Assembly: GCA_001898145.1 (NCBI GenBank)
Contig: MKSR01000047.1
Span: 62,001-126,000 of the forward strand
Direction: 5' to 3'
Length of the DNA: 64,000 nt
Origin: Dyadobacter sp. 50-39
GTDB taxonomy: Bacteria > Bacteroidota > Bacteroidia > Cytophagales > Spirosomataceae
The notes under the pieces are model-generated. The model saw only the letters and a program-made list of their open reading frames with translations. It did not search any database and was not told the DNA's origin. This document shows positions 8,761 to 33,418 of the stretch, in pieces; positions within the stretch are counted from its first letter, which is position 1, and every line of letters begins with the position of its first letter. The position numbers and the translations under genes were made by a program.

Positions 8761-8810
8761 TGCATAGTCCATTACAGTGCACCATTATCCTAAAGCCTGA
8801 TTAAATCTAA

Positions 8811-8851
8811 GGCACAAAAGCCACCGACATTTGTTGATGAGCTTTTGTGCC
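8811..8851 (+). terminator. hairpin terminator after AraC gene
   Basis: Perfect 11-bp stem GGCACAAAAGC / GCTTTTGTGCC with a 19-base loop, 50 bp past the stop codon. There is no strong T tract, and it may work in both directions because the next gene converges from the right. Confidence 0.6.
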
Positions 8852-8917
8852 CGCAACTGGACAAATGTGGGAGCGGATTCTTGATGATTTAAAAATGATT
8901 TCAAGATTAACTGTTGA

Positions 8918-9640: not shown

Positions 9641-9691
9641 CTCAATCTTTTTTATTTTTACTAATGCTTGCCTTCAACCCGGCCACTGTTT

Positions 9692-11343: not shown

Positions 11344-11382
11344 CGACCCACACAGACAACCACACATTCAAAGTTTGTTTCA

Positions 11383-15300: not shown

Positions 15301-15956
15301 ACGGCATATACCAGAGCCAGGCAGAAATAGATGCCGCGCCCAAAGATGCGCTGGCCCCGGCGGCACGCCCCGGCGATCTGCGTTTCAAAGATGTGAACGG
15401 CGACGGTAAGGTGGATGCCGGCGACCGTACGGTAATTGGCAACTACATGCCCGATTTTATGTACGGTATTACCAACCGTTTCAGCTTCAAAGGGCTCGAC
15501 CTGAGCATATTTTTCCAGGGCGTGCAGGGGTCCAAGATCCTGAACCTGACGCGCCGCCACCTGGGCAATGGCGAGGCCGCGACTAATTCCTACAAGGATT
15601 GGACCCAACGCTGGATTTCGCCGGAGAACCCCGGCAACGGCACTATTCCGCGCGCCGACCGCCTTACGGACCTGCACGGGGGTAACAACAGGCCATCATC
15701 GTACCAGGTAGAGGACGGCTCCTATTTCCGGTTGCGCAGCATTACGCTCGGCTATACATTCCCCAAAACCATGCTGGGCAAAGTGCAGTCGCTCCGGGCT
15801 TACGTGTCGGGTACCAACCTATTTACAAGCACCAAATACATTGGTTATAACCCGGAAGTCAACAACCAGTCGGGCCTGACCGGCGTGCAGGGGGAAGATT
15901 ACGGTGCCTACCCATTGTCGCGTAATTTTACATTTGGTCTAAATGTAACATTTTGA
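12390..15956 (+). CDS. SusC/RagA TonB-linked outer membrane protein with STN domain
   Basis: A 1188-residue outer-membrane transporter. The signal peptide ends at about VFA-QD. A secretin/TonB N-terminal (STN) domain lies at about residues 45-110. A carboxypeptidase-D-like beta domain follows at about 145-230 (VKGRVTDEKNEPLPGVSILV). The TonB box/plug starts near VVGYGTQRKGDITGSI, then a 22-strand barrel ends with aromatic residues (FTFGLNVTF). The STN domain marks it as a signalling receptor for the upstream FecI-FecR pair. It should pump an oligomer captured by the SusD lipoprotein. Substrate cannot be read, and no glycoside hydrolase is next to it. Confidence 0.96.
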   Translation: MKIPILRTCMAGGAVFAASTVFAQDIALLRPAMNQQGQQAGYAVKLREVLIDLGKRHHVSILFEPSVIQGIQVAAGVDAAAGDLETELKKLLANTGLEFVKTGKKTYLIRKKEHEKASPVPVKHVGFGYQPEYMAPAEHSRSADVTVKGRVTDEKNEPLPGVSILVKGSNRGGVTDMDGNFSLAVPERDAVLVFSFIGYVTKEIAVDSQTMIEIRLDASVSSLSEVMVVGYGTQRKGDITGSIGSLSAKNIREVQVTNFENAIQGQIAGVQVQEPSGEPGAATTVRVRGLGSVSAGNEPLYVIDGFPVTKNMDPGIQGDISRRTTAFALPPSNPLGTINPNDIESLEVLKDASAAAIYGSRGSNGVILITTKKGKRSARPQIGFDAYFGVQSVAKRVELMNAAELTAYVKDSKNNAYLQDVAGANINDNNAARYTKTTNGSYFIPDDFANPTGTDTDWQDIIFKTAPVQSYNASVSGGTETMNYYFSGGYFNQKGIIDRSGFERYSFRANMEVNPVKKLKVGFGLSPSFTNTDRSPAGAPYFADPPGIVYSALVTSPTVTPYLPDGSINQTDNQSHLLTEDGRGANMTAASNPLAIIRYVTDDLKQFRTFGNVFAEYEILEGLKYKLYTGVDVNSYNRSFYMARAFLNRNATTGDPYAQSNASLNYNWLIENTLSYDRTFGKQHHVSAVVGYSAQKDRLDANQVYAQNHPDDLSPSISGGQVTSGGDNRQEWSLVSMLARVNYGFRDKYLLTATIRSDRSSRFGAGNKSGTFPSLSVGWRLSEEAFMKSVKPVSDLKIRASWGQTGNFLIPNYAAIGLLSPYNYTFNNVIVNGIAPSTISNDRLTWEKTAQTDLGLDLGLFRDRLFISADWYEKKTTDLLLNVQVPSSVGFSTALQNIGKVENKGVELTINSRNIVGEFTWSTDFNFSRNRNEVLQLGPTGDPILSTGGAGIRHITKIGAPIGSYYGYVVDGIYQSQAEIDAAPKDALAPAARPGDLRFKDVNGDGKVDAGDRTVIGNYMPDFMYGITNRFSFKGLDLSIFFQGVQGSKILNLTRRHLGNGEAATNSYKDWTQRWISPENPGNGTIPRADRLTDLHGGNNRPSSYQVEDGSYFRLRSITLGYTFPKTMLGKVQSLRAYVSGTNLFTSTKYIGYNPEVNNQSGLTGVQGEDYGAYPLSRNFTFGLNVTF

Positions 15957-15978
15957 TATTCATACATCTGTGCAATAC

Positions 15979-17379
15979 ATGAAGCTGAAACACATTCTCC
16001 CCGTCCTGACGATCGCCGCCGGCGCGTGGTCGTGCAGCCAGGAATTTACCGATCTGAACCCGGTCACCCAACGCAACGTCAACGGCTTTTACCTTACAGC
16101 CGGCGACATGACAACCGCCATCAATGCGGCTTACAAAGCCCTGCAACTCAACGGCGCCTATAACCAGAGCTACTGGATTATGCAGGAAATGCGCTCCGAC
16201 AATACCGACCAGGGGCCGGATGGCACCGGCCTGGGTGCGGAACTGACGGTGATCGACAATTTCTCCGAAATCGCCACCAGCGAGATCGTCACCGCTGCCT
16301 ATACCGATTCCTACCTGGGCATTGCCCGCTGCAACATCGTGCTTGACCGCATCGGCGGCATTGCGATGGACGCCAATCTGAAAGAGCGTATCCGTGGCGA
16401 GGCGCTGTTCCTTCGTTCGCTGTTTTACTACAATCTGGCGGTTTCATTCGGACGCATTCCATTGTCGCTCACCGAGCCGAAATCTGTAGCCGAGGGGCTG
16501 GCCATGCCGCAGGTGGCTGCCCCGCGGGTATACCAGCAACTGATTACCGATCTGCAAAGTGCGGAGGCCGCATTGCCTGTCAAATATGCGGCGGCTGACA
16601 TCGGGCGGGCTACGAAAGGCGCGGCCGCGGCGTTGCTGGGGAAAGTGATGCTTACCGCAGGCGATAAGGCGGGAGCGGCAACTGTGCTGAAAAGGATTGT
16701 CGATACTTACGGCTACAAGTTGCTGCCCGACTATGCGGGGTTGTGGGGGCTTGCCAACAAAAACAATGCGGAGTCCATCTTCGAAGTGCAGTTCAAGGGA
16801 GGCGGAACCGGTACGGGTAATGCTTTTACCAACGCGTTTTCACCGCTTTTACGACAAACTACCGGCGCCTATAAAAACCGGCCTACGGTGGGCATGATGA
16901 ATGCTTTCGAAGCTGGCGACGACCGCTTTCTGAAATCGATGGACACCAGCTATGTCAATAGCTCGGGGGTGCTGATCTCGCATTCGAGGAACGACACCCG
17001 GTTTATCACCAAGTTTGGCAAGGAAAATGCATTCAACGAAAATGACGCTTCCTACAATTTTATGGTGCTGCGGTATGCCGACGTGCTGCTAATGCTGGCC
17101 GAGGCGCTGGGCGAGTCGCCGGAAGCTTATGGTTATATCAATCAGGTGCGTGCCAGGGCGAAGTTAAGTCCTGTCAGCGCCGCCTCGCCCGGCACATTCG
17201 AAGATAAACTATTACGCGAGCGGCGTGTGGAACTGGCATTTGAAAATCACCGGTGGGCCGACCTGCTCCGGTTTGGAAAGGCCCGCGAGCTCATGCAGGG
17301 GCAAGGTAAAAATGCCCGGCTACTTTTCCTGATCCCGCAACGCGAACTGGACATCAATTCATCCTATACTCAAAACTAA
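15979..17379 (+). CDS. SusD/RagB family surface lipoprotein
   Basis: A 466-residue substrate-binding lipoprotein paired with the SusC 22 bp upstream. The signal peptide ends in lipobox AGAWSC, so the protein is lipidated. SusD hallmarks include the N-terminal QEFTDLNPV, helical TPR-like repeats, RIRGEALFLRSLFYYNLAVSFG, and the C-terminal RRVELAFENHRWADLLRFGKA and LFLIPQRELDIN. I preferred ATG 15979 (MKLKHILPV) over the in-frame GTG 15970. It forms the lid of the SusC pore and determines which ligand is imported. Confidence 0.95.
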   Translation: MKLKHILPVLTIAAGAWSCSQEFTDLNPVTQRNVNGFYLTAGDMTTAINAAYKALQLNGAYNQSYWIMQEMRSDNTDQGPDGTGLGAELTVIDNFSEIATSEIVTAAYTDSYLGIARCNIVLDRIGGIAMDANLKERIRGEALFLRSLFYYNLAVSFGRIPLSLTEPKSVAEGLAMPQVAAPRVYQQLITDLQSAEAALPVKYAAADIGRATKGAAAALLGKVMLTAGDKAGAATVLKRIVDTYGYKLLPDYAGLWGLANKNNAESIFEVQFKGGGTGTGNAFTNAFSPLLRQTTGAYKNRPTVGMMNAFEAGDDRFLKSMDTSYVNSSGVLISHSRNDTRFITKFGKENAFNENDASYNFMVLRYADVLLMLAEALGESPEAYGYINQVRARAKLSPVSAASPGTFEDKLLRERRVELAFENHRWADLLRFGKARELMQGQGKNARLLFLIPQRELDINSSYTQN

Positions 17380-17406
17380 CCAGGCTATTTCCTGTCCCCT
17401 TTTCCT

Positions 17407-19908
17407 ATGACACGCTTTCTGTTACGACAAGCGGCGGCGGCGCTGTGCCTTGCCCTGGCTGCTCAAATACCCGGCAGCCAGGCGCAAATGCCGGCCAAAC
17501 CGACCGCCTCGAAGATCCTGCATGATATGCAGAAACTGAATGTGCTCGGTAATGTGCTCTACATGGCCGCTCACCCCGACGATGAAAACACGACCTTCAT
17601 CGCCTATATGGCCAACGGGCGGCAGTTCAATACCAGCTACTTGGCGCTTACCCGAGGTGATGGCGGCCAGAACCTGATCGGCACCGAGATCCGAGAGCAG
17701 CTTGGTTTGATCCGTACCCAGGAGCTCTTGCAGGCCCGCCGCGTGGACGGCGGCAAGCAATATTTTTCGCGGGCAAACGATTTTGGATTTTCCAAAAATC
17801 CGGAAGAGGTGTTTACGATCTGGGAGCGGGAGAAGCTGTTGGCGGATGCTGTTTGGGTGATCCGCAATGTGCGTCCGGACGTAATCGTAACCCGCTTTCC
17901 GCCCGATGCCCGCGCCGGTCACGGACACCACAGCGCCTCGTCCATCCTGGCCGAAGAAGCATTCGACGCCGCTGCCGACGCGCAGCGGTTCCCAGAGCAG
18001 TTGAAGTATGTGCAGCCCTGGCAGGCAAAGCGGTTGATGTGGAACATCGGCATGTGGGCCGTGCGTAATAGGGAAGAGTTTATCAAAAATGCCCGAAGTT
18101 ATATCCAGATCGACGTAGGCGGCTACAATGCGCTGCTTGGAAAATCCTATGGCGAAATCTCTGCCGAAAGCCGCAGCATGCATAAAAGCCAGGGCTTCGG
18201 TTCCATCGGCAGCCGGGGTATTTCGATAGAGTATTTGCAACACACCAAAGGTCCCAAAGCGAACAAGGACCTTTTTGAGGATGTCAATACTACCTGGGCA
18301 AGGGTGAAGGGCGGCGACAAAGTACAGCCTATGGTAACTGCGCTGATTGCTGCCTATAAGCCTGCAAACCCGGCGGCTAGCGTGCCTGCGTTACTGAAAA
18401 TCCGGACGGAGATTGGTAGGTTGCAGGATGCATTTTGGAAAAAAATCAAGCTTAAAGAGGTCGACGAGCTCATCAGAAATACATTAGGCCTGTACTTGGA
18501 AGCCACAGCGTCGGACTATGCATTCACGGCGGGAGAAGGGATGCCGGTTTCGGTGGAGGCTATCAACCGGTCGGTAGCGGGCGTGATTTTGCACAAGGTG
18601 AAATTACCCTTCGGCGGGGATACTGTGCTCAGCCAGCCGTTGAAAAATAACGAGGGCGTCGATCTGGTATTCCAAACTAAAATCCCAGCGAATATACCGG
18701 TGTCGCAGCCTTACTGGCTTCGCAAGCCGATCGGCTACGCGGGGCTTTTTTCGGTCGAGGACCAACAGGAGATTGGTCGCGGGGAAAATCCGCCAGTGGC
18801 AGTGGTCGGCTTCGAGCTGAGCGTTGACGGGCAGAAGCTGAGCTATGAAACGCCAGTCGTATTTAAAAAGAAAGACCCCGTAGCGGGAGAGGTCTACCAG
18901 CCATTGGTGGTGACGCCGCCGGTGTTTGCGAATATATTGCAGGATGTATATATGTTCGAAGACGGGCAGCCTAAGAAGGTGCTCGTAGCCTTGAAAGCCG
19001 GGAAAGACGATTGTAAAGGGCAGGCGTCGCTAGCGTTGCCCGAAGGGTGGAAATCGGTGCCGGCCAGCAGGCCTTTTGCGATCAGCTCCAAGGGGACAGA
19101 ACAGATGGTGGAGTTTATGCTGTACCCGCCAGCGGGTTCGCAGGATGTGGAAATTACCGCCGTTGCAAAGGTGGAGGGCAATGAATATGCCAATAGCCTC
19201 GCTCAGATCACTTATGACCATATTCCGGCACAGGTCTTTTTTCCTAAGGCGGCTGCAAGGGCTGTCAGGCTCGATCTGGTCAGGAAGGGCGATCAAATCG
19301 GCTATCTCATGGGTGCAGGCGACCTAATCCCAGAAAGCCTCCGCCAGGTCGGCTACCAAGTGACTATGCTGGAAGACAAGGATATCACTGCTGAAAAGCT
19401 CAGCCATTTCGACGCCATTGTCGCAGGCGTGCGGGCATATAACACCAACGAACGCATGAAGCATCATCAGCAGGTGCTAATGGATTATGTCAAAAACGGA
19501 GGCAACTTGATTGTCCAGTATAATACCGAAATGGACCTGGTCATGAAAGATATCGGCCCCTATCCCTTCGAACTGACGCGTGACAGGATCACCGTAGAAG
19601 GGGCTCAGGTGCGTTTCCTGAAACCAGAAAGCCCTGTACTGAATAGCCCGAACAAGATAACGCCGGCCGACTTCGAGCACTGGGTGCAGGAGCGGGGCTT
19701 GTATTTTCCTCAAAAATGGGCACCCGAATATGAAGCGGTGATTTCTTCCAATGATCCGGGCGGCCCGGCGCTGGACGGCGGTATCCTGGTGGCTAAATAC
19801 GGGAAGGGTAATTATGTTTATACCAGCTTATCATGGTTTCGCGAGCTTCCCGCCGGGGTGCCGGGTGCCTACCGGATCTTTGTCAACCTGCTGTCGCTAG
19901 GTAAATAA
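17407..19908 (+). CDS. PIG-L family deacetylase with C-terminal GATase1-like domain
   Basis: An 833-residue exported protein; signal peptide cut near GSQAQ. The PIG-L/LmbE zinc site is AAHPDDEN (His56, Asp59) plus the downstream HGHHSAS motif near residue 178. The middle is beta-rich. A C-terminal Rossmann-like segment (QVTMLEDKDI, DAIVAGVRAYNTNE, NGGNLIVQYNTE) resembles a glutamine-amidotransferase-like/ThuA-like fold. PIG-L enzymes remove N-acetyl groups from GlcNAc-type sugars. Position right behind SusCD suggests action on an N-acetylated glycan or glycoside imported by that pair; this is inference. Confidence 0.9.
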   Translation: MTRFLLRQAAAALCLALAAQIPGSQAQMPAKPTASKILHDMQKLNVLGNVLYMAAHPDDENTTFIAYMANGRQFNTSYLALTRGDGGQNLIGTEIREQLGLIRTQELLQARRVDGGKQYFSRANDFGFSKNPEEVFTIWEREKLLADAVWVIRNVRPDVIVTRFPPDARAGHGHHSASSILAEEAFDAAADAQRFPEQLKYVQPWQAKRLMWNIGMWAVRNREEFIKNARSYIQIDVGGYNALLGKSYGEISAESRSMHKSQGFGSIGSRGISIEYLQHTKGPKANKDLFEDVNTTWARVKGGDKVQPMVTALIAAYKPANPAASVPALLKIRTEIGRLQDAFWKKIKLKEVDELIRNTLGLYLEATASDYAFTAGEGMPVSVEAINRSVAGVILHKVKLPFGGDTVLSQPLKNNEGVDLVFQTKIPANIPVSQPYWLRKPIGYAGLFSVEDQQEIGRGENPPVAVVGFELSVDGQKLSYETPVVFKKKDPVAGEVYQPLVVTPPVFANILQDVYMFEDGQPKKVLVALKAGKDDCKGQASLALPEGWKSVPASRPFAISSKGTEQMVEFMLYPPAGSQDVEITAVAKVEGNEYANSLAQITYDHIPAQVFFPKAAARAVRLDLVRKGDQIGYLMGAGDLIPESLRQVGYQVTMLEDKDITAEKLSHFDAIVAGVRAYNTNERMKHHQQVLMDYVKNGGNLIVQYNTEMDLVMKDIGPYPFELTRDRITVEGAQVRFLKPESPVLNSPNKITPADFEHWVQERGLYFPQKWAPEYEAVISSNDPGGPALDGGILVAKYGKGNYVYTSLSWFRELPAGVPGAYRIFVNLLSLGK

Positions 19909-19987
19909 CCGCAGCATCGTTTTTCTGGTTGCGACCCTGATGGGAAATCGGTAATTTGAAGGCCACTCATCAAACGTTCTAATCACT

Positions 19988-20707
19988 ATGCAATATTTCA
20001 AAACAAGCCGCATCACCCTGGTCCTGTTTGTGACTGCTTTCTTATTGTGTTCTATTGGTTTCCGCAAACCAGGCCGCTGGGTAATGCTTTTCGATGGGAA
20101 AAAACTGGAAGGCTGGCATAGCTACAATCAGAAACAGGCTGTGGGATGGTTCGTGGAAAATGGTACGCTCACGACGGACGGCACGGGCGGCGACCTGGTT
20201 ACGGATAAGGAATACGGTGATTTTGAACTCGAATTCGAGTTCAAAATCCCTCAGGGAAGCAATAGTGGCATACTTTATAAAGTGATCGAGCAGCCGGATA
20301 TCAAACGCACCGTCTTTTCCGCACCCGAATATCAGATCATTGACGATCAGAATTACGTGGTCAAGGATTCGACCGGAAAGAATATCGGCCTCAAACCCGT
20401 GCAGCGCTCGGGAGCCAACTACGACATGAACCCGCCAATGGACGCCACGGCCTATAAACCGGTCGGAAGCTGGAATACCGGCAAAATCGTGGTGGCCAAA
20501 GACCATGTCCGTCATTTCCTGAACGGCAAACTGGTGGCGGACTATCAGTACGGCGACCAGGCCTGGAAGGAGAAAGTGGCCAAAAGCAAGTTCCGGGACT
20601 GGCCCTATGCCACGCCGCATCACCGCGGTAAAATCGCCCTTCAAAATCACAATGTCAAAGAGAAGGTGTGGTTTCGCAATATCCGGATCTTGGAACTAAG
20701 TCGATAA
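19988..20707 (+). CDS. DUF1080 (3-keto-disaccharide hydrolase) domain protein
   Basis: A 239-residue exported protein: signal segment at residues 1-25, then a concanavalin-like DUF1080 fold (VMLFDGKKLEGWHSYNQK, GDFELEFEFKIPQGSNSGILYK, YEYQI-like APEYQIIDDQN, GKIALQNHNVKEKVWFRNIRI). DUF1080 members act as 3-keto-glycoside hydrolases or sugar-binding modules in Bacteroidota and Planctomycetes. As the last gene of the SusCD operon (79 bp gap after the PIG-L gene) it may cleave a glycosidic bond in the transported ligand. No lipobox cysteine is placed convincingly, so periplasmic or secreted. Confidence 0.9.
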   Translation: MQYFKTSRITLVLFVTAFLLCSIGFRKPGRWVMLFDGKKLEGWHSYNQKQAVGWFVENGTLTTDGTGGDLVTDKEYGDFELEFEFKIPQGSNSGILYKVIEQPDIKRTVFSAPEYQIIDDQNYVVKDSTGKNIGLKPVQRSGANYDMNPPMDATAYKPVGSWNTGKIVVAKDHVRHFLNGKLVADYQYGDQAWKEKVAKSKFRDWPYATPHHRGKIALQNHNVKEKVWFRNIRILELSR

Positions 20708-21121: not shown

Positions 21122-22168
21122 ATGCAGTCCGTACTCTGTATATTACTGCTTTTTGCCGGCACCGACCCGTTTTTTTCCGGCGGGGGCCGTATCAATGGCA
21201 CGCCCTACGCGCGGTTGCCGGACACGCTGTATGTGCCTAAGGCTGTGGACAAGCTATTTCTCGAATTGCCACAGCACCCCGGGCAGGGCGTCAGTTACGC
21301 ATTCAAAATGGACCCGATCGATCACGAATGGACGCCCGCCGTTTATCCAGCGGTGCGTTACGAGACGTTGCGGGAAGGGTATTACGAGTTACATTTCAGG
21401 GTTTTAGATGCGCATTCGACGGTTTTGAATACGAGCCGGTTTGTGATCCGGAAAGAAGCCGCTTTCTGGCATGCGTGGTGGTTTATTCCGCTGCTTACCC
21501 TGTATGTGGCCGTGGTAGCGGGCGTGGGGGTATACATTTTCAACCTCTACAACCTTCGGCAGAAACTCAAATTGCAATACCTCAGAAACCAGATCGCCTC
21601 CGACCTGCACGACGAGGTGGGTTCGAACCTGAACAGCATTGCATTGTTTGTGGAGCTGCTGCGCAAAAACGCCACGCCGGAGACACTGCCGGTGCTGGAC
21701 CGAATTATCAGCAATTCGCGGGAGTCGGTGGAGCTGATGCAGGACACGGTGTGGGCGATCAACCCCCGCAACGATTCCCTCCAGAAGCTGATCGACAAAA
21801 TGCATTCGTTTGCCACCCAGGCGCTCGCGGCATGCGATATGGCCCTCGAATTTCAGTCGGAAAGCAGCCTGGCCGACTTGCAGCTCAGTATGGAGCAACG
21901 CAAGAACATTTACCTGATATTCAAAGAAACGATCAACAACGCGGTCAAGCATTCGGGTGCTACGGGCGTGAGCGTGCGGCTGCAACGCATGAGCGACGCG
22001 CTTTTCTTGCAGATCAATGACAACGGTAAAGGCTACGACACAGGGCGCCAGTACGAGGGCAACGGAATTTTTAACCTCCGAAAACGGGCCGAAGAGTCGG
22101 GGCTCGACTTGCTGGTACATTCGCGTCCGGGCGAAGGTACGCGTGTGGAAGTGCTTTGCCATCCCTAA
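21122..22168 (+). CDS. NarL-type sensor histidine kinase (HisKA_3), short sensor
   Basis: A 348-residue kinase. A signal-like hydrophobic start is followed by a periplasmic Y_Y_Y-like beta domain (about residues 40-110, ending YYELHFRVLDAHST). A membrane helix spans about 118-141. The HisKA_3 domain has DLHDEVGSNLNSI with His163, and the HATPase has KETINNAVKHSGA, NDNGKGYD and GNGIFNLRKRA. Related Bacteroidota kinases carry a large two-component-propeller domain before the Y_Y_Y module; here the propeller is absent, so this is a reduced version. A cognate LuxR-type regulator follows 52 bp downstream. Confidence 0.9.
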   Translation: MQSVLCILLLFAGTDPFFSGGGRINGTPYARLPDTLYVPKAVDKLFLELPQHPGQGVSYAFKMDPIDHEWTPAVYPAVRYETLREGYYELHFRVLDAHSTVLNTSRFVIRKEAAFWHAWWFIPLLTLYVAVVAGVGVYIFNLYNLRQKLKLQYLRNQIASDLHDEVGSNLNSIALFVELLRKNATPETLPVLDRIISNSRESVELMQDTVWAINPRNDSLQKLIDKMHSFATQALAACDMALEFQSESSLADLQLSMEQRKNIYLIFKETINNAVKHSGATGVSVRLQRMSDALFLQINDNGKGYDTGRQYEGNGIFNLRKRAEESGLDLLVHSRPGEGTRVEVLCHP

Positions 22169-22220
22169 AATTGGGGATTTTTCTTCTGCGGCATTTGCCG
22201 GATTTTTGTAACATCATTCA

Positions 22221-22868
22221 ATGCGACCGACGATGATAAAAGTTTTGTTATTCGAAGACAACAAGAATTTCAGGCAGGGTCTGGCGCTTTTTCTATCGGC
22301 TTTGGAGGATATCTGGCTGGTCGACGCCCTTCCTGATGCTCGGGACGCGGTTTACCTGGTCAAGAAGCATAAGCCCGACGTGGTGCTGATGGACATTCAA
22401 ATGCCCCGGAAGTCGGGAATAGAAGCGCTGGTAGAAATCCGGAAAGCCCAGCCGGCTGCCAAGGTGCTGATGCAGACCGTATTCGAAGACGACGACAAGG
22501 TATTTCAGGCAATTTGTTCGGGCGCTTCGGGATACATTGTCAAATGCCCCGACCCAGAGGTGTACGTGCAGGCGATCCGCGAGGTGTATGCGGGTGGCGC
22601 GCACATGTCGCCGACCATTTCGCGGAAGGTGCTGGCCATGTTCCAGCAGCAGTTTGCGAAATCCGAGCAGACTTTCGTGGACCTTACCAACCGCGAGCGG
22701 GAAATACTCGGGTGTATGGTCAAAGGGCAGAGCTACAAGATGATCGCCGCCAGTTGCGGCATTTCGTTCAGCACCGTAGCCACGCACGTGAACCACATTT
22801 ACGAAAAGCTGCACGTCAACTCCGCCCCGGAAGCGGTAGTAAAAGCATTGGAAATGAAACTGGTATAG
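22221..22868 (+). CDS. NarL/LuxR-family response regulator
   Basis: A 215-residue regulator. The receiver domain has VLLFEDN (acidic pair), the phospho-acceptor in VVLMDIQMP (Asp58), a Thr/Lys pair (LMQTVFEDDDK; GYIVKCPDPE). The C-terminal LuxR HTH is LTNREREILGCMVKGQSYKM followed by CGISFSTVATHVNHIYEKL. The start may instead be ATG 22233 (MIKVLLFED). It is almost certainly the partner of the kinase just upstream, and the unrecognised peptidase gene begins 31 bp after its stop, so that cluster is its probable target or operon-mate. Confidence 0.92.
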   Translation: MRPTMIKVLLFEDNKNFRQGLALFLSALEDIWLVDALPDARDAVYLVKKHKPDVVLMDIQMPRKSGIEALVEIRKAQPAAKVLMQTVFEDDDKVFQAICSGASGYIVKCPDPEVYVQAIREVYAGGAHMSPTISRKVLAMFQQQFAKSEQTFVDLTNREREILGCMVKGQSYKMIAASCGISFSTVATHVNHIYEKLHVNSAPEAVVKALEMKLV

Positions 22869-22899
22869 AATCCTCCATTTTATTAAACTTTTATACGAT

Positions 22900-24123
22900 A
22901 TGAGTACAACGCTTGTAGAGCAGTTTCTCCCTAAATCTTGCTGGGCTGCGTCGTTAGATATGTTCACCAATGGTCAATTGAAGCAATGCAAGCTGTTGAG
23001 AGAGGATCATGGAGGTGATGTCCCGGCAAATCCAAGAAAATTTTGTGACGATACCTGGCTTCGGAACAACAGAGGTGCGTATGTAGGCAATACCAAAACG
23101 CTGGCTTGGGTGAAGGATCGGCTGGTACTGGCTGGTAGAAGCCCGGTAACACACAACGGCAGAGCTGTGCCTTCTTTCAAGCAGTTACAAAGCGATATCG
23201 GCGCTTCCGCCATAACCCTTATGTCGTGGGGCTTCGCAAACAATCTCCATTTTATCGTGCCAGTAAAAACCGTAGAACAGCAATTGGCAGGATCAATACT
23301 GCTACAATGGATTAAGGTTTTAGATCCTTATCCTGCAACGAAAGGCCGTACTTACTATCTTAATTACAAGCAATTTGCAGCTTCCGGGTGGTTCAAAGGC
23401 ATGATTTTTCAAAGTCAGGTCAATGGCGGAAATGCATCGCAACCGACCGAATTTTCAGACGCCGATCCCAAGCAGTTGGTTCAAAGATATCTTGACTCGT
23501 TGGCGACAACAACCAGCGATTTTCGACAGGTGACCAATGTTGCTGGTGATCATCAAATCCTGGATTATAATTTCAATGTCACAAATATCAATGTCAGCAT
23601 TTTGCTTGCCAACGGACAGCGATTTTTCGATAGCATTCTGGCGGGAGGAAGCAATCTAAAAATGTATCTGGCAGGTTTAAACAACAAATACACCGCGTAT
23701 TTTCTGAATTCGGCTGATAACTCATATTACATTTCAACGCTTGAAAATGGCCTGAGATATCTTCCAGTAGCAGGCACCAACCATGCGGGAGTAGTAAATC
23801 TCGCCCACATGGCTGCGCCTGCAAGAGCGGTATCCAGGGGCGCGAAGCAGCTGAAAGCTATTGACCACGATCAGCCGGATAAAACAGAACAAGCCGCGCT
23901 TAAATATTTTGAAAAATGGCCTAATACCGCACTAATATGTCAGTTTTTCGACATCGGCCAGGAGTATGTATTCTTTGTCAAAGATGGCAGGGTGCGGGTA
24001 TTCGATCCGTTCCGGTCGTTTGCCTATATTTTTCCAAAATCGCACAAGGGGATTTCCCATATTTCCCTTAAAGCATTCTTAGCTGTTATTCCCTCTTTCT
24101 ATAAAATTCTAAACGAAAAGTAA
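22900..24123 (+). CDS. leaderless papain-like cysteine peptidase (C39/C70-like), family unassigned
   Basis: A 407-residue protein with no signal peptide. Residues 8-25 read QFLPKSCWAASLDMFTNG, the classic Q...CWA(A) nucleophile helix of papain-like peptidases (Cys14). NLHFIVPV supplies His117, and WIKVLDPYPATKG supplies Asp142 in the VLDPxP context seen in C39/C70-type enzymes. The triad order and spacing are as expected. The C-terminal half (about 230-400) is beta-rich with a second VFFVKDGRVRVFDPF motif and is unrecognised. I infer a cytoplasmic protease or transpeptidase; the substrate might be a neighbour in this cluster. Gap to the next gene is 3 bp. Confidence 0.7.
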   Translation: MSTTLVEQFLPKSCWAASLDMFTNGQLKQCKLLREDHGGDVPANPRKFCDDTWLRNNRGAYVGNTKTLAWVKDRLVLAGRSPVTHNGRAVPSFKQLQSDIGASAITLMSWGFANNLHFIVPVKTVEQQLAGSILLQWIKVLDPYPATKGRTYYLNYKQFAASGWFKGMIFQSQVNGGNASQPTEFSDADPKQLVQRYLDSLATTTSDFRQVTNVAGDHQILDYNFNVTNINVSILLANGQRFFDSILAGGSNLKMYLAGLNNKYTAYFLNSADNSYYISTLENGLRYLPVAGTNHAGVVNLAHMAAPARAVSRGAKQLKAIDHDQPDKTEQAALKYFEKWPNTALICQFFDIGQEYVFFVKDGRVRVFDPFRSFAYIFPKSHKGISHISLKAFLAVIPSFYKILNEK

Positions 24124-24126
24124 AAC

Positions 24127-24672
24127 ATGGACAACGAAGTAGAATACGCAATCGAAAGGGTAAAGCGCTTTGCTAATATGAAAGGTGTGCAAAAGGCAGA
24201 TAGAGTCAGTCTCGGCCTTCGGTATTCGATTGACGAACTGTTGCAGCTCGTTGCCGGGCTAACAGGCAAGCGCGTGTTGCTGGTGGATGAGGCGGATAGT
24301 ACCAGTATTTTGCCACAAGGCGCCGAACTCGCGCTCGCGGAAGCGGGCAAGCCGTGCGGCGACTACCGGTTTACCGTTGTGAAGTCTTGCATTGGCAGCG
24401 ATGGCATAACCAATGAAAACGACGATCAGAGCAGTGAGTTCAACAATACGATTTATCCCAAGGCGACCGGAGTTGTGTTTATGGTCGGAAAGGAGAAGCC
24501 GGCGATGGCGCTCACGGTCGAGACGTTTCCGATTGTCGGCGAAGACCTGGTTAACGATGAAGGAGATATGTTGCCACTCTGGGATTTCATAAAGTATAAC
24601 GGACGTTACGCCTACTCGCCGGAAGACGGCGGTGGCGGCACCGGTTCGAAAACACCTCCTCCGGGTGCTTAA
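24127..24672 (+). CDS. hypothetical protein, cluster partner of peptidase
   Basis: A 181-residue protein I do not recognise. It is acidic, with an early helical part (YSIDELLQLVAGLTGKRVLLV), a central strand-rich part with VVFMVGKEKPAMALTVETFP, and a disordered Gly/Pro tail (EDGGGGTGSKTPPPGA). No signal peptide or membrane helix. It starts 3 bp after the peptidase stop, so expression is surely coupled. It could be a substrate, inhibitor or adaptor of the peptidase; nothing in the sequence decides between these. Confidence 0.7.
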   Translation: MDNEVEYAIERVKRFANMKGVQKADRVSLGLRYSIDELLQLVAGLTGKRVLLVDEADSTSILPQGAELALAEAGKPCGDYRFTVVKSCIGSDGITNENDDQSSEFNNTIYPKATGVVFMVGKEKPAMALTVETFPIVGEDLVNDEGDMLPLWDFIKYNGRYAYSPEDGGGGTGSKTPPPGA

Positions 24673-24684
24673 CGGTTTTTACGG

Positions 24685-25344
24685 ATGTTGTCAGAACTCC
24701 TTTTATATCGGTTTTCGGGATGGCTGCTTACGGCGGTATGGCTGTTCCTGTCGTTCCAGGCGCTGCGCAGGCGTGGAGTATGGAATGGCAGATACCGGTA
24801 CTTCCTGATTTTCCTGCTGTCGATCTCGTTTATCGAGCTCGCGGCGGCCATTACCGCACCGCTGCTGAGCAACAACCTGTTCCTGGATTATCCCTACATC
24901 ACGATCGAGTTTGTGATGCTGGGGTTGTTTCTGGCCAAGATCATCGACATCGGTTTTATTACCCGCCTGGTCAACGTCGCGTCGGCGCTTTTTGTCCTTT
25001 TCCAGATCGCCAATGCATTCTGGTTGCAAGGGCTCGAAAGCTACAACAGCTACGGCGAGTATGTCAACAATGCCTACCTGTTCATGCTTTCGGTGTGGGC
25101 GCTTACGGTACTTTACCGGCAGAATCTCGGACGCAGCATCCTCGCCGTTCGGGACGCTTGGTTCGTACTTGGCATACTGGGCATTTACCTGCTCATCTCC
25201 GTGATCGACTTCCTGTACGACATGGCGCTGCCTTACCGGAACGACCATATCCTTTACATAGTCCTCATATCGGGTAACTTTTTGAAATCGGGCCTGCTGA
25301 TGCTCTATTACAAAGGCATTCGCATGATGCCGCGCCAGCGGTAG
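24685..25344 (+). CDS. seven-helix integral membrane protein
   Basis: A 219-residue polytopic protein with about seven hydrophobic helices (roughly residues 5-27, 39-61, 70-89, 95-114, 128-143, 158-182, 190-211) and short loops. No catalytic motif stands out. Similar small 7-TM proteins occur next to LuxR-type two-component systems in Cytophagales, which would suit a sensory role together with the kinase at 21122, but I cannot assign a family. It lies 12 bp after the previous gene and closes this transcript, since a hairpin terminator follows. Confidence 0.72.
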   Translation: MLSELLLYRFSGWLLTAVWLFLSFQALRRRGVWNGRYRYFLIFLLSISFIELAAAITAPLLSNNLFLDYPYITIEFVMLGLFLAKIIDIGFITRLVNVASALFVLFQIANAFWLQGLESYNSYGEYVNNAYLFMLSVWALTVLYRQNLGRSILAVRDAWFVLGILGIYLLISVIDFLYDMALPYRNDHILYIVLISGNFLKSGLLMLYYKGIRMMPRQR

Positions 25345-25358
25345 CCCGGCATATTCCC

Positions 25359-25396
25359 GCACCCCCGGAAGCACGCTCGTGAGAGGGTGCTTTTTT
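25359..25396 (+). terminator. hairpin terminator splitting the cluster
   Basis: GCACCC...GGGTGC arms (25359-25390), with an inner AGCAC/GTGCT alternative pairing, followed directly by TTTTTT. It separates the kinase-to-7TM transcript from the genes starting at 25517. Confidence 0.7.
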
Positions 25397-25516
25397 GCTT
25401 TTACCGGGTTGTAATATCCATAAAATTGTCGATACCGCTTCATATGGATTTGGGGGAAATTTGAAATGTCATCACACCGGTGACTGTCCGTTCCCAACAT
25501 TCAAATCCAGTTCATT

Positions 25517-25939
25517 ATGGCAAAGCAAAGTGAATTCGAATCCGTGCAGGAGGCCTATTTTACGGGCATCCAACTGGTTCAGCTGGCCAAGTTCAGCGAT
25601 TCCAAAGAGTCGGCGCAATTGCTGGCCAAGCATGGTATGGCGCTCATTTCCAAATCGCAGGAGACGATCCTGAGCAAGTATTTCGATGAATATTGCGGCA
25701 CCCATCCGTGGCGTTGGCCGCGCCCCTGGCCTTTTCCGTGGCCCGGTCCATGGCCTGGTCCTTGGTGGCGCACATTCGATCCCGGTTTCATCGATCCCGT
25801 ACCCGATCCGCTCCGTGGCGCGATGAACAAGTTTCACCTGCTGGCCAGCATTGAAGACCTCCGCTCAGGTCTGCTCGGTAATGCCGCACTCGAGGCGGTG
25901 AAAGGCATTTCGGAACAGCTCCGCGCCAATCTGCGGTAA
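25517..25939 (+). CDS. Trp/Pro-rich hypothetical protein
   Basis: A 140-residue protein with no signal peptide. Residues 1-60 look helical (AYFTGIQLVQLAKFSDSKES). Residues 63-84 are extraordinary: HPWRWPRPWPFPWPGPWPGP then WW, alternating Trp/Pro/Gly with eight Trp in about 22 residues. Residues 100-140 are again helical (MNKFHLLASIEDLRSGLLGN). Such a rigid, aromatic polyproline-like rod could be a binding ligand, a membrane-active segment or a spacer; I know no matching family. It begins the second transcript of the cluster after the terminator at 25359. Confidence 0.7.
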   Translation: MAKQSEFESVQEAYFTGIQLVQLAKFSDSKESAQLLAKHGMALISKSQETILSKYFDEYCGTHPWRWPRPWPFPWPGPWPGPWWRTFDPGFIDPVPDPLRGAMNKFHLLASIEDLRSGLLGNAALEAVKGISEQLRANLR

Positions 25940-25951
25940 TGCCGGTTGGCC

Positions 25952-26233
25952 ATGATCGTCGAAATTCATTTTCAGGAAGGGTTTTCAAACGAAAAAGCGC
26001 AACTGCTTGTCGACGGCGACGTGGTTGAGGAATTTTCTTTGAGCACCCGGTTTCAACTCGGGATGGCGGCCATCAAGAAGGTGGACGTCGCATCGGGGAC
26101 GAAAGTGCGGGTGGTATTGCCCGACCGGAACATCCGGCAACAGGTTCCGGTCAGTCATCGCTACGTGAAGGTCAGCCTAGAAGATGGAAAGCTGACAATC
26201 AGCCCCACAGACCAGATGCCCGGCTATGTGTAA
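25952..26233 (+). CDS. small hypothetical protein, cluster member
   Basis: A 93-residue protein starting at ATG 25952, 12 bp after the Trp/Pro-rich gene; a TTG two codons earlier is possible. It looks all-beta (IVEIHFQEGFSNEKAQLLVD, VRVVLPDRNI, HRYVKVSLEDGKLTISPTD), like a small beta-sandwich. No signal peptide, membrane segment or motif. Not recognised. Its position between the Trp/Pro-rich gene and the metalloprotease gene suggests an accessory or binding role; that is only context. Confidence 0.65.
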   Translation: MIVEIHFQEGFSNEKAQLLVDGDVVEEFSLSTRFQLGMAAIKKVDVASGTKVRVVLPDRNIRQQVPVSHRYVKVSLEDGKLTISPTDQMPGYV

Positions 26234-26283
26234 ATCCACATTGTTTTTAAGCACCCATTTTTTATCCTAAACATTTCAAAACC

Positions 26284-28542
26284 ATGTCTAGAAAAAACAG
26301 TACGCCGGAAACTACGGCGCCAACTCCGGCTTTGTCCGATGAGCAGCATCCTGATTACCAGGCTTATGTATATGGTGACGACGAGGACGATTCCGTAGCG
26401 GAAGCGGGCGACCTAGGACCGGATGGCCCTGGCTTACCGGGTATCCCGCCTCTTAACCCCATTCCCGACCTGCCGATACCCAATATTCCGGGTATTCCGT
26501 TGAAAATTTGCTCGGCCGTGAGCGGCAGGTACAAGCTGAAAACAGTTCTGCCGCCCATCGGCGGACCGGGTATCCCGATTTTGAACCTGACGACCGTCAC
26601 CGTTCGCGTGGACGTGGATCGGTTTTATCCTCAAAAACGTATATCAATAGAGGTTACCCGCCTGCTGCCCCGCTCGATGGCGCATTTGATCGCGAACGTG
26701 ACGTCCGACAAATGCACCGGTCTCAACCGCCGCAAGATCCAGGCGACAATAGCCTACCGCGAGGGGAACAATGCATTGATCCCCGGCGAAAAGCTGCTGT
26801 TTGAAGCCAGCAGAGGGCTGGGCGTAGGTTATTCGACTTACAAGCTGACGGTGACGGGCACAGGCACTCCGACGCGTGTTTATAACCTCGATTTCGTGAG
26901 CCAGTATTTTGACGACGTCGAATTTGAGGTGGACAAAGTAGATAATGCCGGTAACCCGTCGACCGACTATTCAACGCACAGCCACCCCAACCGTCCCGCA
27001 AGTTTGCCGAACGAAGTACTTTCGCTGGAAAACGTTTACAAACGGGCCGGTTTCAACGCCACCATTTCACCTAACAGCGCACCGATTCCCGCAACGGGCG
27101 CCGGCGCCAACGGTACATGGAGCGACAGCGAAATGCATAATGCCATGCAAACTTACTGGTCGAGATTCGCCAATAAACCGCAGTGGGTGTTGTGGGTACT
27201 GTTTGCCAATCAGCATGATACGGGTTATGGCCTCGGCGGGGTGATGTTCGATGACATTGGCCCGAACCACCGCCAGGGTACAGCCATCTTCACGAATAGT
27301 TTCATTCAAGATGCACCGGCGGGCGACGCCAACCCGGTCGCATGGCGGCAGCGGATGCTTTTCTGGACGGCGATCCACGAAATGGGGCACGCGTTCAACC
27401 TCGCGCACAGCTGGCAGAAGGCGCTTTCGGGCCCGGGCTACAACCCGTGGATTCCGCTCCTGAACCAGCCCGAAGCGAGAAGTTTCATGAACTATCCGTA
27501 TAACGTGAGCGGCGGACAGAGCTCGTTTTTCTCCAACTTCGACTTCCGCTTTACAAATGAGGAATTGCAGTTTATGCGGCACGCGCCGCGCCGCTTTGTA
27601 CAAATGGGTAATGAAAACTGGTTCAGCAACCACGGTTTCGAAGCGCCGCAGCCCGAGCTCTTCACGGGACGCTACAAACTTGAAGTTCGGCCAAACAGGG
27701 AGAATAACACCTACTCGTTCCTCGAACCGGTGAGCATCGAACTCAAACTCACCAACACCAGTACCGAGCCGTTGGCCCTCGACGAGCATTTGCTCCAAGA
27801 TGGCGGGCATATTGTGCTGTTTGTGCAGAAAGACAGCGGTACTGTCAGAAAATGGGAGCCGCTGATCGTACGCTGTCACCAGGAGCATAAAAGCATGCTG
27901 GCCCCCGGCGAGTCGATCTACGGCACGCACCTGGTAAGTGCTTCCACCTCCGGCTGGCTGATCGACGAGCCCGGTTTCTACAACATCCAAGCCGGCGTGG
28001 ATATGCTCGACGAGGTAGTGATGAGCAACGTGCTGCGCGTGTTCGTGGCGCCTTCTACGGACACGGAAGAGAACAAGATCGCGCCAGATTACTTCACCGA
28101 GGATGTGAGCCGCGCACTGGTATTCGACGGCGCGCCGGAGCTTGGCAAAGCAATGGACACGTTAAAGGAAGTGGCCGACAAACTTCCAGGTACCCCAGCT
28201 TCGTTCCATGCAGCGAAGGCGGTTGCCGGGCCGATGTTGAAACAATACAAAAGGCTAGAAGAGAAAGACGGCTCGCTGGCTGTGGTAGCTGGCAAGGCGG
28301 ATGTAGACGAAGCGGTCCGCCTGCAAACCGCCGCGCTGCTGGATGAGCCACAAAAAGCGGCCGATACCTTCGGGCATATCGATTACTTCCAGTCGCTGGA
28401 AACCCTGGCGGACGTATTGAACGAGTCGGGTAAGAAAGCTGAGGCAAAAAAAGTAATGTCCAGCTCCATCTCGACCATGAAAAGCCGCAATGTGCTCGAC
28501 GAGGTGATTCAGCAAGCAGAAGCGAAAGCGAAAAACCTCTAA
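26284..28542 (+). CDS. leaderless metzincin-like zinc metalloprotease
   Basis: A 752-residue protein. Residues 1-50 are disordered and acidic; 48-74 are Pro/Gly-rich (PGLPGIPPLNPIPDLPIPNI). The protease core has AIHEMGHAFNLAHSW: zinc ligands His365, His369, His375, general base Glu366, and Asn372 where metzincins usually have Gly. A Met-turn candidate follows in RSFMNYPYN (Met402). A beta-sandwich module covers about 465-610 and an alpha-helical repeat-like tail 625-752. No signal peptide and no T9SS C-terminal domain, odd for an enzyme type that normally acts outside the cell. Last gene of the cluster. Confidence 0.75.
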   Translation: MSRKNSTPETTAPTPALSDEQHPDYQAYVYGDDEDDSVAEAGDLGPDGPGLPGIPPLNPIPDLPIPNIPGIPLKICSAVSGRYKLKTVLPPIGGPGIPILNLTTVTVRVDVDRFYPQKRISIEVTRLLPRSMAHLIANVTSDKCTGLNRRKIQATIAYREGNNALIPGEKLLFEASRGLGVGYSTYKLTVTGTGTPTRVYNLDFVSQYFDDVEFEVDKVDNAGNPSTDYSTHSHPNRPASLPNEVLSLENVYKRAGFNATISPNSAPIPATGAGANGTWSDSEMHNAMQTYWSRFANKPQWVLWVLFANQHDTGYGLGGVMFDDIGPNHRQGTAIFTNSFIQDAPAGDANPVAWRQRMLFWTAIHEMGHAFNLAHSWQKALSGPGYNPWIPLLNQPEARSFMNYPYNVSGGQSSFFSNFDFRFTNEELQFMRHAPRRFVQMGNENWFSNHGFEAPQPELFTGRYKLEVRPNRENNTYSFLEPVSIELKLTNTSTEPLALDEHLLQDGGHIVLFVQKDSGTVRKWEPLIVRCHQEHKSMLAPGESIYGTHLVSASTSGWLIDEPGFYNIQAGVDMLDEVVMSNVLRVFVAPSTDTEENKIAPDYFTEDVSRALVFDGAPELGKAMDTLKEVADKLPGTPASFHAAKAVAGPMLKQYKRLEEKDGSLAVVAGKADVDEAVRLQTAALLDEPQKAADTFGHIDYFQSLETLADVLNESGKKAEAKKVMSSSISTMKSRNVLDEVIQQAEAKAKNL

Positions 28543-29694: not shown

Positions 29695-30237
29695 CTACGT
29701 TTTGTTTTTCCTTGCCAACTTTGCCATCCGTAGGTCTCGCCAGTAGGCCTGTTCTCGAATCCGTTCTTTTGTTTCGTCGTAGAGTGCCTCGACTTGGTCC
29801 CAGAAAGGCGCACTAGCAGAGTGTTCGGAAGCAAAATCGATTGGAGTCTTACCACCCAACGAGCTGTGCTGCCGGAAGAAGTTGTAGTGGAATTGCCATT
29901 GGGAAAGTTTGTCGTCCAATTCTGGGTCTCGCAAGTCAACTGTTGGGTAGAATTCCTGGAGATCAGTCTGCTGGTGATGAGCCCAGCATATCGAATCGGT
30001 GGACAATCTAGTAAATCGACGACTTGGTGCACCTGAATGTTTTTCGAGTATTCGCGCTACGGTAGAAGTTGAAATCCTCAAATTATGTAGCCTGAACTTA
30101 TGAGAGCAGATTCTGAGTTTTCCATACTTAAATTCACCGCGTACCTTAAGCGCGAGGGCCTCGTATTCAGGACGATATTTGTCGCCCCAGCCGATGCGGA
30201 CGGTGAGACCAATCTGTAAAGAGATTTTCATCGTCAC
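29695..30237 (-). pseudogene. IS481/IS3-like transposase remnant, internally deleted
   Basis: The frame joins an N-terminal helix-turn-helix part (EFKYGKLRICSHKFRLHNLR, then STSTVARILEKH) to the C-terminal integrase tail (WQFHYNFFRQHSSLGGKTPI). The DDE catalytic core that should lie between them is missing, replaced by about 40 unrelated residues. An intact enzyme would be roughly 350 residues, so this one is inactive. Translation would start from GTG 30237 or ATG 30231. No terminal repeats identified with certainty. Confidence 0.65.
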
Positions 30238-31772: not shown

Positions 31773-32489
31773 TCAGACTTCACTCATCGCCAACTTTCTG
31801 CGTCGGAGATCAGCTCCAGGCGCTTTTCTTTCTTTATTGTGGACCGCCAATCCTTGGTCGACTACCAGATTGGAAGCGCCCTGTTTTTTTGCCAATGCTA
31901 CGAGATTGGCAAAGTGTTTAAGATTGAACCGCTCCATCAGCATTCTGCGATGATATTTCAGCTCGATCATTGAAATGCCCAGGTTATTGGCGATCGTTTT
32001 GAATGCCTGGTCACGGGACAAGCCCTCCAGAATTCCACGCTCGATGCTCGACAGGTTGTTCAGCGATGGCCCCCCCGCAGTCATTTCGGCCCAAAGCATA
32101 TCCTGCACATCTTGGGAGAGGAACAAATTTCCTTTTTTTACCTGCGCGATAGCGTCAAGCAGCTCCTGAAACGGGCAGTTTTTGGAAAGAAATGCTTTTG
32201 ACCCAAGGTTCATATAATTCCTGATCCGCCACTCATCGCTCATGGAAGTTAGGATGATCACATCAGGTTTGGGCTCAGCCGAAAAAATAGCGTCAACAGC
32301 TTTGTCATAGCGGCCGTTAAAAACAAGCTCGGTGATCACCAGCGTAGCGGGATCATTGCCTTGATCAACCGTGAATGCCTCCACGGAATTATAAAGGCTT
32401 ACCGCATCCAGTTCTTCCAGCGATTTGAACAGATTTACTTTAAGGGTTTCAGTGAAGATTCGGTGGCTATCGATTAATGCAATTTTCAT
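31773..32489 (-). CDS. orphan LuxR-type response regulator with Glu at phospho-site
   Basis: A 238-residue protein from ATG 32489 (MKIALIDSHR); the longer frame to 32597 adds an unlikely leader. The receiver domain shows ALIDSHR (Asp7), then LVITELVFNG where the phospho-acceptor Asp is replaced by Glu54, then ILTSMSDE (Thr81) and FLSKNCP (Lys103). The C-terminal HTH is recognisable but divergent (LSSIERGILEGLSRDQAFKT, LGISMIELKYHRRMLMERF). No kinase is adjacent. The Glu may mimic a permanently phosphorylated state; this is an inference. Confidence 0.82.
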   Translation of the reverse strand: MKIALIDSHRIFTETLKVNLFKSLEELDAVSLYNSVEAFTVDQGNDPATLVITELVFNGRYDKAVDAIFSAEPKPDVIILTSMSDEWRIRNYMNLGSKAFLSKNCPFQELLDAIAQVKKGNLFLSQDVQDMLWAEMTAGGPSLNNLSSIERGILEGLSRDQAFKTIANNLGISMIELKYHRRMLMERFNLKHFANLVALAKKQGASNLVVDQGLAVHNKERKAPGADLRRRKLAMSEV

Positions 32490-33418
32490 GTTGGGAGGAT
32501 GTTGAAGACAAACGGGCTGCGGAGCCGTGTGCCGGGATGGCAATTTTTTTGTTGGCTGCAAGTTAAACAGCTGTTTCATGCAGGTGTGATCTGGCAAATT
32601 ACAGGAACCGCGGCGGCCTGGGAGAGAGCAATTTCCGTTGCGTTTGCCACTGTTGGCGCGCGTCTAAAACCAGCGCAGCCATTGCAGCGGGATAGTCACG
32701 CGAGAAATAGCGGAAAGAGAATAAACTCCACAAGCTTGTCGGCACCCCAAGCAGGTTACGTTCGGAAACACCGGGTCCCGCAGACGCTTTGAGGGCAGGA
32801 AACAGGTATACCAGGACTTGTCGGAAAAGCTGCTCGTTGCGGCGAGTCTGTGGAAATGCTTGTCAGTAACATTAATATGAAAGGTTAACGTTGAGTAAAA
32901 TCACTTCAAATCGATATCAAAAAATGGATGGTCACTAAATAGTAAGTGTGCCGATATCTCTGAACTCTGCTGACTTTTTGAACCGGTCGGAGGCTGAAAC
33001 TAGCCGCCTGCAAATAGGCGTGCTACTCGTAGGCCAAAGTTTTAAACATCTGAGGTTGAAGCTATGAAACAAAGTTTATTATAACAAGCCATCAATGACC
33101 ATAGTCTATCATTTTACTTATAGTTATACAATTATTTATATAAAATGATTGTATAATTCCATGTTGTGGTAATCGACGTTTGCTGCAAATGAAACCGTTT
33201 TGAGCATTTGGTAAAAAAGGCTAGGCTGACCGAATAATAAATTGAAAGTAATCAGTCGACCTAATTTGAACGTAAATATGTATACGTCAATACAAGGCGA
33301 AACAGATTCAGGACTATATACGTCCAGCGCCAGTTGATCCACCTCCTCCCCGGATTCGCTCAGGAAAATAGAGGAATGTCTTTTCTGAGGCGTAAGGTGC
33401 AGCGGCTATCATGCCGAA
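32490..33418. other. gene-poor region
   Basis: No confident gene. A minus-strand open frame from GTG 33342 to 33136 (68 codons, VDQLALDVYSPESV...) has a purine-rich GGAGGAG immediately before the GTG and protein-like composition, but no recognisable domain. I leave it as possible only. Confidence 0.3.

Follow-up and report, generated by a model that had tools for sequence, protein, structure and literature searches.

The question raised by the locus described here is why a two-component kinase/regulator pair should stand in one row with two proteases of different families, neither of which carries an export signal, and with several small proteins of unfamiliar kind. The locus lies at 21122-28542 of a 64,000-nucleotide stretch of Dyadobacter sp. 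50-39 (contig MKSR01000047.1, positions 62,001 to 126,000), hereafter the window, and its eight open reading frames (ORFs) were all confirmed there. They form an island of two modules, a cassette of five genes (HK-RR-PAP-P181-7TM) and a separable module of three (WP140-B95-MET). Our tentative reading, held with rather less than even confidence in its full form, is that a two-component signalling cassette, in which the peptidase PAP matures its neighbour P181, is linked to a leaderless protease module that is open to exchange. The features of the island are as follows.

21122-22168, plus strand: HK, histidine kinase (HisKA_3/HATPase_c) with an N-terminal hydrophobic segment and one transmembrane segment at about 121
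22221-22868, plus strand: RR, NarL-type response regulator (Response_reg and GerE)
22900-24123, plus strand: PAP, putative leaderless papain-type cysteine peptidase with a C39/C70-like N-domain (Q8, C14, H117, D142) and a C-terminal domain
24127-24672, plus strand: P181, tail-bearing protein with the C-terminus GGGGTGSKTPPPGA, swapped together with PAP in genome G683
24685-25344, plus strand: 7TM, multi-pass membrane protein by hydropathy
25367-25396, plus strand: intrinsic terminator 3' of 7TM, a hairpin also found in 3/3 folded relatives
25413-25442, plus strand: conserved 30-bp element, candidate operator/promoter of the effector unit
25517-25939, plus strand: WP140, Trp/Pro-rich leaderless protein with relatives in G679 and G692 (protein) and in G683 and G688 (DNA)
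25952-26233, plus strand: B95 (from its ATG; the ORF opens with TTG at 25946), small beta-sandwich partner of MET
26284-28542, plus strand: MET, leaderless metzincin with HEMGHAFNLAH, Met-turn M402, a Pro-rich N-terminus and a long C-terminal part

The limits of the island are drawn by nucleotide identity. Relatives within the genus were found through the HK search, and the regions of four genomes (G683, G688, G702 and G679) were compared with the window. In the alignments with G683, G688 and G679 the identity climbs at the start of HK and drops at the stop of MET; most genes in between are about 87-89% identical in DNA to those of G683 and G688, with about 48-60% in forced alignment outside, and G679 gives 56-82% inside the same limits and 42-51% outside. 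Since the identity is confined to this interval in all three, the eight genes are regarded as one discrete island, present as a whole in four genomes of the genus (the window's own, G683, G688 and G679) between differing flanks. The first five genes are kept in G702, with a different pair downstream. In these comparisons a few genes (RR in L123, L124 and L126; 7TM in L124; B95 in L126; WP140 in L123 and L124) are masked by ORFs that overlap them or run antisense, and their presence is read from the DNA alignment instead.

The five genes of the cassette stand in the same order in the window as in 13 of the 36 regions fetched (L123-L132, L135, L175 and L178), regions which were chosen by HK or 7TM similarity, so that the fraction is no estimate of prevalence; L176 and L183 hold PAP and a tail-bearing protein in a different arrangement. 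The kinase/regulator pair named in a preliminary description of this DNA is a NarL/UhpA-type two-component system by four Pfam families, HisKA_3 and HATPase_c in HK and Response_reg and GerE in RR, all above cut-off, and the spacings of 31, 3 and 12 bp reported there from RR through PAP and P181 to 7TM agree with the ORF coordinates. HK has a signal-like start, an ectodomain of about 100 residues with a sub-threshold Y_Y_Y match, and a single transmembrane segment. At E 1e-5 the 7TM family profile has matches in 53 of the 291 genomes searched in the order; hydropathy gives 5-7 helices over 14 members (6 in the window's own, at a laxer cut-off), and at E 1 none of the 14 matches the AgrB/CAAX-type Pfam families. 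A sister architecture, Y-7TM-HK-RR, places a protein Y in front of 7TM and both in front of the kinase. Ten kinases were inspected, from 10 of the 11 loci in L184-L194; each has one transmembrane segment near its N-terminus and almost no ectodomain, for which reason the neighbouring 7TM protein is their likely sensor. Loci of this architecture (L184-L194 and L210-L249) are common in the order, and their Y proteins are very unequal in size. Directly after the cassette of L131 lies an ORF of 1206 residues of an unrecognised kind (10519-14139 of that locus).

The part of the cassette that may hold a ligand is the C-terminus of P181, in which a Gly-rich stretch is followed by KTPPP. Counterparts elsewhere have unlike bodies and for the most part end in GSKTPPPGS, NQKVPPPSVRTP, SQKTPPPFS, GEGVKVRIPT, DGTKVKVPAPEA, TTGVKIPAN, TTGTRIPAPRG or PIRIPRPPQEE; the tails fall into the kinds KTPPP, VK(V/I)P and CPPxC, the last of which is frequent in the sister architecture. 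The pattern was first noticed post hoc, and the rule was then fixed and tested on 40 unviewed 7TM matches, one of them without an upstream ORF. A tail was scored in 31 of 39 ORFs just 5' of 7TM and in 47 of 221 other ORFs of the same regions (Fisher p = 4e-12), the gene calls being simple ORF picks, so that the controls may include ORFs that are not genes. By eye, L215 and L216, two of the eight misses, carry this tail with Cys replaced by Ser or Val, and three positives (L234, L235 and L243) are probably not tail proteins. Five P181 proteins were compared within the genus. In nine of the ten pairs the bodies are 42-56% identical and 12-14 of the last 14 residues agree (the tenth pair has 93% body identity), and in five of the nine divergent pairs no 14-residue window of the body equals the conservation of the tail. 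Among pairs with unlike bodies, tail similarity also rises with that of the 7TM proteins (rho 0.246, with 1 of 500 permutations as high); for this comparison 51 of 71 pairs were retained after near-identical 7TM proteins were dropped, and 1174 of 1275 comparisons after similar bodies were dropped. The Y proteins of L181 and L183 are lipoprotein-like by eye and retain a GGGGG...PPP tail, in loci where the 7TM gene is inverted relative to HK and RR.

PAP and P181 have moreover been exchanged together. Between the window and G683, HK, RR, 7TM, WP140, B95 and MET are 87-89% identical in DNA, and PAP and P181 only 57% and 60% (47% and 48% in protein); between the window and G688 the same two genes reach 93-94%, exceeding the 87-88% of their neighbours. 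The exchange in G683 spans these two genes, and the two P181 proteins have their last 14 residues in common (14/14), with bodies 43% identical. Judged from these alignments, the swap would fit an enzyme and a substrate private to each other, with a shared output that an unchanging receptor reads, and it would fit a polymorphic pair of effector and antagonist too. The swapped pair offers a natural experiment on protease-substrate specificity.

The enzyme of this pair is recognised through its relatives. Q8, C14-W15-A16-A17, M21, H117 and P143 are common to 12 PAP proteins, whose identity to the window's member goes down to 14%, and D142 is present in 11 of them. Seven of the 12 match Pfam Peptidase_C70 (best 1.3e-05) and three match Peptidase_C39_2 (best 4.7e-06); the window's PAP itself matches no Pfam family. 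The earlier label of a papain-like peptidase is accepted on the strength of these relatives, and by its conserved catalytic residues PAP is predicted to be a papain-type peptidase. A profile comparison with the solved domain of a double-glycine protease is faint and not significant (E 0.97). PAP is rare: a profile finds relatives in 11 of 316 genomes of the phylum, mostly over the catalytic part only, and single-sequence searches return only its own genome among 150 of the family and two of 296 of the phylum, the second a marginal match (E 0.007). Searches for PAP in plasmids and in viral contigs found none, nor did a search for P181 in plasmids, and the cassette loci became visible only through the HK and 7TM searches. 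No convincing match to PAP, P181, 7TM, WP140 or B95 was obtained in Pfam, NCBIfam, PADLOC or PHROGs; with MET included, PADLOC gave a single weak match, to PAP (E 0.048), and PHROGs nothing below E 0.1. By simple hydropathy no export signal is found in PAP, P181, WP140, B95 or MET, in agreement, for the two proteases, with the preliminary description. Some PAP relatives (L130, L135, L178 and L183) begin, by eye, with a Sec-like or transmembrane segment.

From these observations a mechanism may be proposed. PAP would be the private maturation protease of P181, cutting in or near the Gly-rich hinge and freeing or exposing the tail; the tail would be a ligand of the 7TM protein, which would act with HK as a membrane receptor; and RR would switch on the unit behind the terminator and the 30-bp element, leading to MET, B95 and WP140. 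MET would then act outside the producing cell or after its lysis, with B95, whose structural relatives are generic, putatively restraining or assisting it. Among the three readings offered in the preliminary description (a peptide-maturation pathway, cargo of a contractile injection device, and a self/non-self system) the first comes closest to this proposal: the order of PAP, a protein with a Gly-rich tail, 7TM and HK/RR is conserved, and the cleavage itself we infer. Peptide signalling via dedicated receptors is well known in Firmicutes. It is conceivable, and we put it forward with due reserve, that the order, perhaps the phylum, possesses an undescribed signalling class in which the Pro-rich tails of unrelated proteins are ligands of a 7TM protein that lends sensing to an ectodomain-poor kinase, and that in this island a dedicated papain-type protease and its tail-bearing substrate are traded between strains as a polymorphic pair controlling a mobile leaderless metzincin module. 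The tail rule would supply a concrete ligand candidate for kinases without a sensor domain of their own.

Several observations weigh against the maturation of P181 and the signalling proposed to follow from it. The tails of L130 (GSGAVVR) and L135 (GQVKGNGG) are exceptions to the rule, and in four of the nine divergent pairs the tail is equalled by 2-9 of the body's roughly 150 windows. The correlation between tail and 7TM is weak and shared descent of the loci may explain part of it; body similarity tracks 7TM about equally over all pairs (rho 0.263), and because bodies follow 7TM about as much as tails do, the maturation model was lowered slightly in our estimate. The Y-7TM-HK-RR loci lack PAP, and so do several HK-RR-Y-7TM loci. 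No route by which a leaderless tail could be exported is seen, the cluster containing no ATP-binding cassette (ABC) transporter, and a body as long as about 300 residues would be unusual for a pheromone leader. The predicted structure of P181 has a predicted local distance difference test score (pLDDT) of 36, and the model was not used. The connection from RR to MET, finally, is drawn from position and from the 30-bp element.

That connection would run through the short interval between the modules. A scan near 25374 finds a stem of 5 bp only, and terminator-like sites number 17 against 11.3 +/- 3.7 expected, little above chance; the terminator which the preliminary description placed after 7TM is accepted despite this weak scan because the hairpin and T-run recur in 3/3 folded relatives as in the window. 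The 30-bp element lies between the terminator and the effector genes and is kept in G702 ahead of a different effector module. It occurs as a single copy in each of five of 42 genomes of the genus, the five in which a cassette with a KTPPP tail was found; the other 37 lack it even when three mismatches are allowed, the cassette regions having been inspected in the own genome and 13 others of the 42. By its position and conservation it is a candidate operator or promoter of the effector unit, with a recombination site as an alternative. Promoter-like sites are at chance level (9 against 9.5 +/- 3.1), and Rfam returns no match at gathering level over 25300-25560, the one match scoring 15.7 against 60 bits. 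A small ORF over the element and its flank was considered and rejected, each frame being broken in at least one of four sequences; on each strand two or three of the four leave one frame open, and a small ORF may have been lost there.

The module behind the element is built around MET, in which H365, E366, H369, H375 and M402, that is HExxHxxxxxH and the Met-turn, are invariant in seven members. Position 8 of the zinc motif, Gly in the metzincin consensus, is Asn372 in MET, invariant in the four core members. The match to Pfam Reprolysin_4 is sub-threshold (19.3 against 22 bits), and the metzincin-like protease of the preliminary description is upheld by the zinc motif and the Met-turn. An alignment scan of genome contigs found at least 66 MET loci, with identities of up to 57%, spread over many phyla; with the matches from the order and from plasmids 80 loci were examined, 79 of them distinct (L008 and L083 are the same contig), and a search against phages found none. 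The MET ORFs of L013, L056, L069 and L082 are split or cut. Hydropathy finds MET leaderless in 76 of the 79 loci, and the signal-bearing ones (L007, L008/L083 and L009) are distant matches. In 29 examined loci a relative of B95 is encoded no more than 1.5 kb from the called MET, and in two others (L013 and L069) it is farther off; among L018-L035, where MET is at least 40% identical, it accompanies MET in 15 of 18. A search for B95 in the order found it in one of 194 genomes, its own. The relatives in L024, L041, L042 and L051 begin like lipoproteins by eye. The predicted structure of B95 is an eight-strand sandwich (pLDDT 96), as the earlier term small beta protein had suggested; Foldseek finds no specific relative of it (best E 0.005, TM-scores to the query about 0.3-0.56), the matches being generic immunoglobulin, carbohydrate-binding-module and transthyretin-like sandwiches. 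MET, an unnamed metzincin, is widely scattered and recurrently has B95 as its small partner. The slot behind the cassette in G702 and G692 is taken by another leaderless metzincin (Pfam Astacin, 26.5 and 29.8 bits, cut-off 22.5), it too accompanied by a small protein, which shows that varied metzincin-plus-partner modules follow the cassette. Independent scatter of the homologues, named in the preliminary description as telling against a joint system, is thus found for MET-B95 across phyla and not for the first five genes, which travel together. On a Rhizobium plasmid (L011, 1-9662) MET-B95 stands beside a ferritin-like protein and a radical S-adenosylmethionine gene.

Leaderless effector-like proteins of environmental bacteria are known as cargo of extracellular contractile injection systems (eCIS), as described in the accessible parts of PMC8213781 and PMC11297309, and MET-B95 could be such cargo under the regulation of the cassette. 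The leaderless state of MET in nearly all loci agrees with this. The tube-protein family TIGR02241 was searched in 49 other MET-bearing genomes (from L018-L077, among the at least 66 loci); it is above cut-off in 18, a count without a taxon-matched control, and 30 show no match. Two of the four genomes with the whole island carry it (G683 and G679), which raised this reading slightly; G688 and the window's own genome do not, so that the cargo reading of the preliminary description, for which this check had been named, is unsupported in this genome. Within the genus TIGR02241 is found in 11 of 42 genomes, made up of 4 of 11 in which a collinear cassette was found and 7 of 31 others. The 18 of 49 MET-bearing genomes are a far larger share than the 1.9% of isolates for which eCIS are given in the part of PMC8213781 available. 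No ORF in the fetched MET loci, many of which reach 10 kb on each side and some of which are short, matches either of two tube-protein queries that did find relatives in control loci. We regard this explanation as very improbable.

Two of the remaining alternatives concern what P181 and PAP do. It may be that the tail is never released and that P181-type proteins are cytosolic or lipoprotein sensors whose constant tail docks into a 7TM-HK complex, with PAP as a second regulated enzyme or a remover of the sensor. Variable bodies with related tails for each kind of 7TM fit the docking of an adaptor at least as well as they fit a peptide, and the sister architecture lacks PAP; the paired exchange of PAP and P181 around an identical tail, however, is left unexplained by docking, as is the Gly-rich stretch ahead of the tail, and on this evidence we place docking on the unlikely side. 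Less probable again is the self/non-self system of the preliminary description, in which PAP would be an effector with P181 as the matching antagonist or chaperone, regulated by the two-component system and accompanied by MET as a further effector. In its favour, PAP and P181 are replaced together, sharply in G683 and recently in G688, and an integrase fragment lies near the window's island and an IS3-like ORF (by eye) near that of G683; P181-type proteins, however, precede 7TM genes in many loci without PAP, and family searches of the eight proteins found no toxin domain besides the peptidases. An ordinary operon, with a common NarL-type system followed by degradative genes that are adjacent by accident, would account for the rarity of PAP relatives and for the otherwise unrelated neighbourhoods of 12 inspected MET loci. 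It is improbable in view of the five-gene collinearity across genera, the conservation limited to the island and the outcome of the tail test, and the nucleotide alignment had already disfavoured it.

Among characterised systems, quorum sensing of the agr and ComQXPA type likewise combines a peptidase, a peptide or tail protein, a multi-pass membrane protein, a kinase and a regulator in one locus. The island differs in its putative precursor, a protein of 130-300 residues (181 in P181), in 7TM members without an AgrB/CAAX match, and in a HisKA_3 kinase with a NarL-type regulator. Double-glycine processing by C39 peptidases, as in the peptidase-containing ABC transporters (PCAT), resembles it in a papain-type peptidase of the form Q..C, H, D beside a protein with a Gly-rich site; PAP, however, is a standalone protein with its own C-terminal domain, no ABC transporter is encoded among the eight proteins, and the Gly stretch of P181 is followed by no more than a short tail. 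By analogy the island would work most like these agr-type or double-glycine peptide systems, without an AgrB match or an ABC transporter. Peptidase_C70 (AvrRpt2) and C39-like families resemble PAP in weak, repeated Pfam matches among its relatives, yet the window's PAP matches none of them and has the long extra C-terminal domain. MET shares its zinc motif and Met-turn with the reprolysin, matrixin and astacin metzincins, and differs in being leaderless, in the Asn for the usual Gly and in its small beta-sandwich partner. Clusters of ribosomally synthesised and post-translationally modified peptides with C39-containing transporters, one of them with a kinase and a regulator, are described for Bacteroidales in the passages available of PMC10352776; the arrangement of the island is not in those passages, '7TM' does not occur in the text of that paper, and such a locus is likewise not in the available part of PMC12419801. 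No such locus in Bacteroidetes or Cytophagales is described in the literature searched, which covered titles and the starts of abstracts and few subscription papers.

Directly 5' of the island, at 10687-20707, sigma factor, FecR, SusC-like, SusD-like, PIG-L-type and DUF1080-type genes stand in a row, an ordinary nutrient-uptake locus in which the sigma factor and FecR are assigned from family matches and the rest judged from sequence. Beyond the right edge lie an integrase-core fragment (29695-30237, minus strand; Pfam rve_3) and an orphan LuxR/NarL-type regulator (31773-32597, minus strand) with GerE above and the receiver domain below cut-off; the IS3-like ORF of G683 is on the left of its island copy. 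In L130 the region 3' of the cassette (8785-14510) encodes a propeller lipoprotein of the pyrroloquinoline quinone (PQQ) type, a WP140 relative, an astacin-like leaderless protease with its partner, and a 99-residue protein without a Pfam match, which we take to resemble H-type lectins.

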